From: Sulfuriflexus mobilis
GTDB taxonomy: Bacteria; Pseudomonadota; Gammaproteobacteria; AKS1
Assembly (NCBI RefSeq): GCF_003967195.1
Contig: NZ_AP018725.1
Location: forward strand, 1,116,001-1,180,000
Length of the DNA: 64,000 nt
Direction: 5' to 3'
Numbering within the stretch: position 1 is the first letter of the stretch; every line of letters begins with the position of its first letter. Of this stretch, positions 10,179 through 13,005 are shown one piece after another. A program made the position numbers and the translations under genes. Below the pieces are notes generated by a model. That model did not search any database and had not been told where the DNA came from. It was given only the letters and a program-made list of their open reading frames with translations.

Positions 10179-10895
10179 TCAGGCGCGGATATAGGCCCAG
10201 CCCAGTTTCAGGCGCTTGATGATTTGCTCCAGGGCGGCATTGACCCGTTGGGCCTCCGGAATAAGCTCTATCTCTTTGCCTTCTTTCAGGTGTGCATTTT
10301 CCATCGCGTGGCCACAGGCATAAAAGGCGACGTTCTGGTGCTCCGTGACAATAGAGCGGATCCGCCCCTGGTAAGGAGAACCCTCGCGTAACATGGCAAT
10401 GCCTTCAGCATTGGCGACAATCTCAAGGTTAATCGGGCGATGGTGACTTTCCCTCTCCGTCAGTAATTGCTCTGCTGTATTCAGTACCTTTTCAATACTC
10501 TCCTCATCTTTGCTGCTGATGTGCAGGAGGATATTTTCATTGTTATCCTTGGTGGGATTGAATTGCGCCAGCGAGCCAAAGCTTGGCGTGTTAGCCGAAT
10601 CGGATAACTGGGTGTGACCGATCCAGCCGGCGCTAACACTCAATACAAACAGAACGGACGCGGCAATGCCGGCCGAAAACCAGTTTACCCTGGAGGTTTG
10701 AGGTGCCGTCTGCTGAATAAGCCTGGGTGGTTCAGCATAGGCCAGTCGCATCATGTCTTTGGTCTGCTGCAGGCAGTTAATGCGTTCGGTCAGTTCGCGA
10801 TCTTCCTGCATGAGTTTTAAAATACGCGCGAGGGTATTGTTATCCAATTGCCCATCGATAAAGGCATTTAACTGTTCATTTGTAAAAATACTCAT
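10179..10895 (-). CDS. Transmembrane anti-sigma factor with periplasmic DsrE-like domain
   Basis: The product is 238 residues. The N-terminal 60 residues look like a short anti-sigma domain (FIDGQLDNNTLARILKLMQ). One membrane segment follows at about 72-90 (AGIAASVLFVLSVSAG). Residues about 120-238 resemble the DsrE fold (NILLHISSKDEESIEKVL, VAFYACGHAMENAHL, a C-terminal LGWAYIRA) with one conserved-looking cysteine in ACG. Its start overlaps the sigma gene stop by 4 bases, so it is co-translated. It probably sequesters that sigma factor and senses a periplasmic sulfur or redox signal; the sensing role is inferred. Confidence 0.75.
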   Translation of the reverse strand: MSIFTNEQLNAFIDGQLDNNTLARILKLMQEDRELTERINCLQQTKDMMRLAYAEPPRLIQQTAPQTSRVNWFSAGIAASVLFVLSVSAGWIGHTQLSDSANTPSFGSLAQFNPTKDNNENILLHISSKDEESIEKVLNTAEQLLTERESHHRPINLEIVANAEGIAMLREGSPYQGRIRSIVTEHQNVAFYACGHAMENAHLKEGKEIELIPEAQRVNAALEQIIKRLKLGWAYIRA

Positions 10896-11437
10896 TTTAC
10901 CCTCCGCACATAGTTACACCGTGTGGTCTTGCTCTGCTGGAATTCCTGAAGGTGCTCACGCAATTGTGTACGGGCACGGCTCAGACGACTCATCACTGTG
11001 CCAAGTGGAATATCCAGAATATTGGCAACCTCCTGGTAACTGAATGCTGCCAGGTCAACCAGGCTGACTATTTCACGCTGTTCGGGTTTGAGTTTTTCAA
11101 TGGCGGCGTGGACCTTTTGGGTAATCTGCCGGCGATAAACATCGTCTTCGCCGTCTTCCTCATAAACCAGGTGATGTTCTTGCAACTCGCTGAACTCGCG
11201 GCGTCGCCGACACATGTCACACCAGCAATTATGCATGATGCTGAATAGCCAGCTTTTCATGGCACCGTCCTGTTTCAGGCTGTGTGCATTGCGCATGGCC
11301 TTTAACGAGGTCTCTTGTGCCAGATCACTGGCCAGTTGTGGGTCATGGCACCAGGAATAGGCGACCCGATAGAGGTCATCCCAATATCCCGCCAGTCTGG
11401 TACGAAACTGTGTCGATCGTCCCTGTAAAATACGCAT
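10892..11437 (-). CDS. ECF RNA polymerase sigma factor
   Basis: The product is 181 residues, the normal ECF size. Region 2 is at about 20-85 (YRVAYSWCHDPQLASDLAQET, KSWLFSIMHNCWCDMCRRR). Region 4 is at about 115-165 (LKPEQREIVSLVDLAAFSYQEVANILDIPLGTVMSRLSRAR). It heads an operon with the DsrE-type anti-sigma gene. A GGAATA-N16-CGTCAT element 37-64 bases upstream fits an autoregulated ECF promoter, and a matching element points at the divergent TPR gene. Confidence 0.93.
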   Translation of the reverse strand: MRILQGRSTQFRTRLAGYWDDLYRVAYSWCHDPQLASDLAQETSLKAMRNAHSLKQDGAMKSWLFSIMHNCWCDMCRRRREFSELQEHHLVYEEDGEDDVYRRQITQKVHAAIEKLKPEQREIVSLVDLAAFSYQEVANILDIPLGTVMSRLSRARTQLREHLQEFQQSKTTRCNYVRRVK

Positions 11438-11473
11438 GGTATGCTGCCTGTCTTGGGGCTTGTTATTGTCTAT

Positions 11474-11501
11474 ATGACGTGCCTAAATTACAAAGTATTC
11501 C
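11474..11501 (-). promoter_or_regulatory. ECF-type promoter of the sigma/anti-sigma operon
   Basis: On the minus strand, GGAATA (11501-11496) and CGTCAT (11479-11474) are 16 bases apart. This fits the general ECF pattern of a GGAA-type -35 and CGTC-type -10. The same elements at the same spacing face the opposite way at 11530-11557. Confidence 0.7.
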
Positions 11502-11529
11502 ATATTTTTTGCTTTATTATCCTGTAGAG

Positions 11530-11557
11530 GGAAATAAAACCGCACCTGCTGCGTCTA
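11530..11557 (+). promoter_or_regulatory. ECF-type promoter of the divergent TPR gene
   Basis: GGAAAT (11530-11535) and CGTCTA (11552-11557) are separated by 16 bases, copying the elements of the facing sigma-operon promoter. The -10 ends 35 bases before the TPR gene ATG. Confidence 0.65.
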
Positions 11558-11592
11558 ATGTATATAGGGAAGTAAACCGGAGGGTGATAAAA

Positions 11593-13005
11593 ATGAAAAA
11601 AGTGCTTGTATATCTGGCGGTTAGCATGCTGCTCTGGCAGGGCGCGGCCATCCAGGCCAAGGAGCGTCTGAGCTCAGTAAAGGAAGACGCCAGGCATATC
11701 AAAGAGTGGAACCGTTTTTCCGACTCGCTGTATACGTTACACAAATGGTTGATTTCCAATCACAATATTCGTACCGAGGAATCCAGCGGCGGTTATCGTA
11801 AAGGCTATCTGGGCGGACCGGATTTTTACCGTGAGGTAAAGTACTTCGATGCCGACAGCGGGCGCCTGCTTAGCCAGATTCAATGGGAAAAGGAAAACCC
11901 TGATTTCATTCATAATATCGAGGTTTATATTTACGACGAAGAGGGCAATATCAAGCTCGATTACCTGGCCGCCTATCTGCCAGCCTTTCGTAACGCGCCG
12001 GTGCAGACCCTGATCAACCTGCACGCCTATAACGATAATCTGCATGCCTTCCGGCAATTTGATGCCTCGGGTGAGCGTATCTACGAGCAATGTTCGGGCG
12101 ATCACCTCTCCGGTGAAGTGGATATTTCGCTCGAGGATTATGAGATGCTTTCACCCTCGAACGCCAATGCCCAACTGTTGGCCAGTGAGACCTATACGGC
12201 CTGTTTCGGCACCCTGGCTTCCTCAGTGGGTAGCTACCTTGACCCCTTAAGCAATCTTCCTGATTCGGCAAGCTCAGCCAAGGCGGTGGATGACAATACT
12301 TTCGAGTTTGTTGCCGCGCAGGTACTGGCCCTGACCAGGCAGATAGAGGCGCAACCGAAGCAATCAAAACTCTATCTCGAACGCGGCAAGTTAAATGTGC
12401 GTATGCTGGAATTTGCCGATGCCGTGGCAGACACCAGCAAGGCCCTGGAACTGGACGCGTCACAGATAGAGGCCTATTTCTGGCGTGGCATGGCGTTGGG
12501 CAGGCAACGGCAACTCGACGCGGCGATCAAGGACCTGAGTCTTTATCTGGAGCACCGGCCGAAAGATTCACGCGCCTTTACCAAACGTGGTGTGCGCTAT
12601 ATCTGGAAGGGCGATCTGCAGAGCGCAGAAAAGGATCTCCGTCGGGCCATTGAGCTGGATGCCAATAACGCCGAGGCCCATGATGACCTCGGGGTCATTG
12701 TCGCACAGCGGGGCGAGTTGGCCGAGGCGGCACGCCATTTTTCCACCACTGTGAGTGTTGACCCCAGCTATGCCAAGGGACACCAGAACCTGGCCATGAC
12801 CTATTTCCTGCAAGCGGAGTACATGACGGCCCTGCAGTCGGTCAACCGTAGTCTCGCCCTGGAAACCGATAATCGCAGTTCGTTATTACTGAAAAGCGAG
12901 ATCCTCGATGCACTCGGCCGTGGTGAAGAGGCCGCAGACTTTAAGGCCCAGGCCGAATATTTGCCCGAGGCCGGCTGGTCGGAGCGCTTCCACGCCGGGC
13001 CATAA
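11593..13005 (+). CDS. Exported TPR-repeat protein
   Basis: The product is 470 residues from the ATG at 11593, with GGAGGG 8 bases upstream; the longer open frame to 11284 crosses the divergent sigma gene. A signal peptide ([19 protein letters not shown]) is followed by a unique domain at about 30-240, then about five tetratricopeptide repeats (for example [22 protein letters not shown]). TPRs mediate protein-protein contacts, so a periplasmic scaffold role is likely. The facing ECF-type promoter suggests control by the divergent sigma factor. Confidence 0.85.

Follow-up and report, generated by a model that had tools for sequence, protein, structure and literature searches.

The window, a 64 kb stretch of the Sulfuriflexus mobilis genome, probably encodes a switch of the ECF26 type that serves sulfur oxidation in the periplasm, and in which a membrane-bound anti-sigma factor would sense sulfur species via the cysteine of a DsrE domain. 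The gene architecture, the fold of the anti-sigma factor, the conservation of the promoter elements and the linkage to sulfur genes are all computational observations, described below. Each of the three components, namely the ECF26 sigma factor, the class I anti-sigma factor and the DsrE fold, is already known separately. The open-licence papers searched describe neither their combination nor its spread in sulfur-oxidising Gammaproteobacteria, nor its link to exported DsrE proteins and sox promoters, and an earlier mention elsewhere is possible. Little is known of how gammaproteobacterial sulfur oxidisers sense their substrates and switch on oxidation in the periplasm, and the switch may be the means by which they detect the sulfur compounds on which they live. 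The question is directly testable, since the sensor domain is conserved and has a single invariant cysteine, and since the system has a promoter code of its own and a small predicted regulon (exported DsrE, porin, TPR protein, soxB and soxX).

Organization of the Locus

The locus consists of an ECF sigma gene and an anti-sigma gene on the reverse strand, and a divergently oriented gene for a TPR-repeat protein (Table 1). The first-pass annotation had delimited it at positions 10179 and 13005, and both limits coincide with gene ends. The ECF and anti-sigma frames share an ATGA at 10892-10895. The region between the sigma and TPR genes (11438-11592) contains two elements that point apart, and the one on the TPR side lies about 36 bases ahead of the ATG at 11593. 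Both elements, including the identical 16-base spacers noted earlier, were found again. On the opposite strand, a gene at 8733-10160 (+) stops just past the 3' end of the anti-sigma gene; it joins a YbaK-like aminoacyl-tRNA editing domain to an HDOD domain, with a weaker HD match.

Table 1. Coordinates of genes, protein domains and predicted promoters at the locus, in window positions.
Feature	Position	Strand	Evidence
ECF sigma gene, ECF26-like, 181 aa	10892..11437	-	Sigma70_r4_2 E 9.5e-16, Sigma70_r2 E 4.2e-14
Membrane anti-sigma gene with C-terminal periplasmic DsrE domain, 238 aa	10179..10895	-	
Anti-sigma domain, ASDI-like, helices 6-13, 19-31, 33-53	10731..10895	-	model, pLDDT mostly >95
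Single membrane helix, residues 72-99	10599..10682	-	model and hydrophobic stretch
DsrE/YchN-fold domain, residues 119-238	10182..10541	-	profile and structure match to 1L1S
Cys194 codon	10314..10316	-	cysteine closing a strand; 85/85 conserved
Sigma-side predicted promoter GGAATA-N16-CGTCAT	11474..11501	-	sequence and conservation
TPR-side predicted promoter GGAAAT-N16-CGTCTA	11530..11557	+	sequence; GGAATA-N16-CGTCTA before TPR-family homologue in genome G129
TPR-repeat protein gene, 470 aa, apparent N-terminal signal peptide	11593..13005	+	TPR_1 E 5.4e-19

The Anti-Sigma Factor and Its DsrE Domain

Class I anti-sigma factors, such as RseA, RskA, RsiW and ChrR, begin with a helical anti-sigma domain, which in most cases precedes a membrane helix and a sensor region. 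In its AlphaFold model (mean pLDDT 87.9), the window protein shows the same order of an N-terminal anti-sigma domain and a membrane helix. This N-terminal part and the helix match ECF26-type anti-sigma factors, and profile searches connect the N-terminus with the anti-sigma N-termini of Rhizobium (E 4e-15) and Paracoccus (E 3e-12), while RseA_N matches below cut-off only. The EcfR6 region covers only positions 2-97 of the 243-position anti-sigma family profile. The protein appears to restrain its sigma factor as a putative inhibitor.

The earlier proposal of one membrane helix followed by a DsrE-like domain agrees with both the model and the fold match. A comparison of the C-terminus with DsrE structures, suggested in the first-pass annotation as a check, identified a DsrE/YchN fold. 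The match to MTH1491 (PDB 1L1S) has a profile E of 2.8e-20 and, with VIA, a Z of 17.6 at an rmsd of 1.6 across 110 residues; Z is 13.6 for YchN and 11.9 for TusBCD and DsrEFH. The window protein stays below the cut-off of the Pfam DsrE family PF02635 (13.6 versus 22.7 bits), which may explain why it could escape Pfam-based anti-sigma surveys such as PMC7406223. The homologue L225 scores 18.8 bits and one exported relative 48.7 bits against the same family.

Cys194 is invariant in all 85 homologues. It lies in an NV-x-F-x-x-C motif that closes a strand, and the residues are spaced as they are around Cys78 in YchN and TusD. Since these two sequences could not be usefully aligned to the profile, the equivalence of Cys194 and Cys78 is based on motif spacing together with the structural match. 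Cys78 of DsrE is the carrier of persulfide sulfur, and DsrEFH forms a hexamer (PMC3397948). In the alignment column of window residue 40, 54 of the 85 homologues have a further cysteine, located on the cytoplasmic side; the window protein itself has Cys41, one residue off this column.

The Sigma Factor

The sigma factor contains only region 2 and region 4 (PF04542 and PF08281, both above cut-off). Its family profile scores 150 bits with RpoE6 of S. meliloti, an ECF26 member located in pSymA through profile match and position, as compared to 89 bits with E. coli RpoE and 33 bits with FecI. In a tree with few reference groups, it is placed with three alphaproteobacterial ECF26-type sigma factors (support 0.58). 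By sequence, it is thus nearest to ECF26 among the small number of ECF groups compared. The ECF26 consensus promoter (-35 GGAATA, -10 GT or CGTC) is found at 66 of 84 loci. As its anti-sigma factor, unlike S. meliloti EcfR, ends in a DsrE domain, the system is named ECF26-type and considered a variant.

Known ECF26 regulators use a -35 GGAAT and a -10 CGTC with a spacing variation of 1 bp, and those studied are induced by sulfite or tetrathionate (PMC6527743, PMC6180224). RpoE1 of St. novella is activated by tetrathionate, other studied ECF26 regulators by sulfite (PMC6527743, PMC3511301), and compounds that generate sulfite elicit no response from some members (PMC3511301). A description of how sulfite is sensed in the studied ECF26 systems was not found in the papers searched.

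Conservation of the Promoter Elements

Within the 64 kb window, GGAAWW-N16-CGTCW matches only the sigma-side and TPR-side elements. The loose form GGAAWW-N15/16-CGTC is not enriched in the whole genome (54 matches versus 61 for the reversed control), and the meaning of the elements must therefore come from their conservation. The strict form GGAATA-N15/16-CGTCT occurs 38 times in ten chosen genomes, versus 12 for the control. Of 84 homologous loci, 66 have GGAATA-N15/16-C[AG]TC ahead of the sigma gene; 36 carry it on the opposite strand and 33 in both places, while the averages for dinucleotide-shuffled sequences are 0.07, 0.07 and 0, respectively. Spacers other than 15 or 16 bases are nearly absent from these loci, CATC replaces CGTC in part of the fusion family, and the sigma-side element is missing in 18 loci. 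Thus, the presence of the GGAA/CGTC-type element in orthologous loci, which had been named as a check on the earlier reading, could be observed, and conservation across homologous loci establishes the predicted promoter pair as real. The proposal that one sigma factor controls both divergent units is likewise strongly supported, as a prediction, by this conservation.

Away from its sigma loci, the window genome was examined at three GGAATA-N15/16-CGTCT sites. Two of these are within open frames. The third (L328 1501-2329, G000:C1:1610617) is a GGAATA-N15-CGTCTA located about 58 bases before a twin-arginine-like gene with a HAD-hydrolase domain, which is a further regulon candidate.

Distribution of the Pair

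The sigma factor and the anti-sigma-DsrE fusion occur as a pair in 65 of 369 genomes of the class, with about 80 full-length fusions detected by profile search. All but one of 86 fusion genes follow an ECF gene, and the four-base overlap seen in the window is present at 62 of 85 loci. Among the matches listed for 398 genomes sampled across the phylum, only three genomes, all of the same class, show full-length fusions; elsewhere, the anti-sigma and DsrE portions are matched independently of each other. A single-protein scan of genome contigs with the window anti-sigma factor as query retrieved no relatives. An alignment of 36 diverse anti-sigma factors contained no usable conserved stretch, and an exported DsrE was taken as query instead.

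The window genome contains three such pairs. The paralogous pair at 2.86 Mb has a perfect GGAATA-N16-CGTCTA toward the sigma gene and another toward a porin-like gene, and the same two-sided arrangement, with N15 or N16, exists in two genus relatives. The third pair (L016/L018, G000:C1:1248268) shows a CATCTA variant of the -10 element with an N15 spacer, and a secreted protein of uncharacterised kind is encoded downstream.

Neighbouring Genes

The usual partner genes of the pair are those for exported DsrE proteins and porins, and less usually for TPR proteins. An exported DsrE gene adjoins 48 of 85 loci, divergently in 36 and downstream in 16. When named genomes were scanned with the exported DsrE, 80 loci were retrieved, among them loci of Sedimenticola, Thiolapillus, Thiohalobacter, Thiogranum, Chromatiales and Thiotrichales, and 65 of the 80 carry a divergent sigma gene. 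The exported-DsrE locus of Thiohalobacter thiocyanaticus HRh1 (L259) also contains the sigma/anti-sigma pair. In three genus relatives, the strict element precedes an exported DsrE gene that is located elsewhere. The exported DsrE proteins can be divided into two classes: a first class (QISDPNPFKQTLVLNVA), divergent from the sigma gene, and a second class (KVVYHINYDNP..., VCANT), usually encoded right behind the anti-sigma gene (L125, L121, L074, L068 and others). In L071, L101 and L115, the divergent gene encodes a secreted metallophosphoesterase/5'-nucleotidase-like protein with an LSDxHGN motif, in place of a DsrE protein or a porin.

The TPR protein of the window is apparently secreted, and its N-terminal domain has no Pfam name. 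TPR homologues are present in 13 of 143 class genomes, mostly without the element. In the distant genome G129, GGAATA-N16-CGTCTA is found just upstream of the TPR homologue, and in genome G004 the homologue immediately follows an anti-sigma gene of the family. With its off-consensus -35 GGAAAT, the TPR unit is the least certain part of the predicted regulon. In other genomes of the class, the N-terminal domain also makes up a secreted protein by itself, of about 220 aa and with no TPR repeats in its open frame (L270, L273, L275, L276 and others).

Association with Sulfur Oxidation Genes

Of the 65 fusion genomes, 63 carry soxB, a gene of thiosulfate oxidation, versus 85 of 304 others (p 5e-27, Fisher's test, which ignores shared ancestry), and dsrA, again without regard to shared ancestry, in 51 of 65 versus 63 of 304. 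The one fusion genome with neither gene is an 80% complete assembly. An element before soxB is found in 11 of 41 fusion genomes and in none of 40 soxB genomes that do not contain the fusion (p 4.5e-4, Fisher's test, ignoring ancestry); these elements are located 80-280 bases upstream on the same strand. In genome G268, the sigma, anti-sigma, soxX, soxA and soxB genes all run in one direction, in G169 an element lies 37 bases ahead of soxX, and in G129 one lies between soxA and soxB. The window genome carries dsrA and soxB, with no recognisable element upstream of its soxB.

Proposed Mechanism and Alternative Explanations

Based on these observations, a class I-type anti-sigma factor with a periplasmic YchN/MTH1491-like DsrE domain would hold an ECF26-type sigma factor at the membrane. 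A sulfur species, such as sulfane sulfur, thiosulfate-derived persulfide or sulfite, would modify or bind at Cys194, which it could reach directly or through an exported DsrE protein as carrier or partner. The anti-sigma factor would then free the sigma factor, by proteolysis or conformational change. The freed sigma factor would transcribe its own operon from the GGAATA-N15/16-CGTC promoter, as well as divergent or dispersed genes for periplasmic sulfur metabolism, i.e., those for exported DsrE, porin and TPR proteins and, in many genomes, soxB or soxX. We infer the binding of the sigma factor to these promoters, the role of the DsrE domain as sensor, the ligand and its chemistry, and the route of release. 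Sulfur sensing by the DsrE domain, as suggested in the first-pass annotation, has circumstantial support from the invariant Cys194, the kinship with sulfite- or tetrathionate-responsive ECF26 systems, the exported DsrE neighbours and the soxB links. Against it count the TPR protein as partner in the window, which is no sulfur enzyme, and the window soxB without an element. More tentatively, the anti-sigma factor could take up periplasmic zero-valent or sulfane sulfur as a persulfide on its DsrE cysteine, as the first of its kind, with exported DsrE proteins as sulfur carriers; the sulfur-relay fold would then serve as both sensor and output for sox control in gammaproteobacterial sulfur oxidisers. 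If true, exported DsrE proteins would gain a periplasmic role.

RseB acts on RseA, which offers a model for another arrangement, in which the DsrE domain in the periplasm would serve for docking: an exported DsrE protein produced from the promoters of the sigma factor would oligomerise with the domain and set a feedback, and the cysteine itself would be no sulfur sensor. The frequent neighbourhood of exported DsrE genes, the element ahead of such genes elsewhere in three genus relatives and the hexameric state of DsrEFH (PMC3397948) are consistent with docking. However, many loci, including the window, have no adjoining exported DsrE, and pure docking does not require an invariant Cys194 in the anti-sigma factor itself, which makes it rather unlikely. 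A response to general envelope or redox stress (disulfide, oxidant or metal) without a sulfur substrate is improbable: although oxidants can be sensed by one reactive cysteine, some loci have TlpA-like or porin genes as neighbours and some ECF26 members are unresponsive to sulfite-generating compounds (PMC3511301), the fusion is nearly confined to soxB genomes, and the elements before soxB and soxX point to sulfur metabolism.

An objection to the TPR side in particular is that its element is fortuitous, with only the sigma operon being autoregulated and the TPR gene transcribed from its own housekeeping promoter. The deviation of GGAAAT from the conserved GGAATA, the TPR homologues without the element and the missing genome-wide enrichment of the loose motif would fit this explanation, but the same 16-base spacer, the CGTCTA and the distance to the ATG argue against it, as do the perfect elements on both sides of the paralogous pair in the same genome, the perfect element at the G129 homologue and the position of the G004 homologue behind the anti-sigma gene. 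A chance match is thus very unlikely, and a sulfur-responsive switch that includes the TPR gene is the preferred reading.

Comparison with Known Systems

A precedent for sox genes under the control of an ECF sigma factor exists in Arcobacter, which belongs to another class of bacteria; no DsrE-type anti-sigma factor was found in the passages covered (PMC3445524). The N-terminal helical anti-sigma domain is common to the window protein and the class I anti-sigma factors RseA, RskA, RsiW and ChrR, and a DsrE-fused member of this class was not found in the papers searched.

The nearest sigma family found is ECF26 of Sinorhizobium meliloti and Starkeya novella (RpoE1, RpoE4, RpoE6 and SigE), with sulfur-related signals for RpoE1, RpoE4 and SigE. 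Both systems share GGAAT/CGTC promoters with a spacer that varies by one base, a co-transcribed membrane anti-sigma factor, and targets that are divergent or nearby. However, the anti-sigma factors of S. meliloti and St. novella contain no DsrE domain as far as tested, whereas the C-terminus is DsrE here, and the known sulfur targets of ECF26 are sulfite-oxidising enzymes, whereas those predicted here are exported DsrE, porin, TPR protein, soxB and soxX.

The sulfur-relay proteins DsrEFH of A. vinosum, TusBCD and YchN of E. coli, and MTH1491 have the same fold as the window domain, including the conserved cysteine at the strand end. These DsrE/TusD/YchN proteins are soluble and, where studied, cytoplasmic, whereas the window domain is the outer part of a membrane-bound anti-sigma factor.
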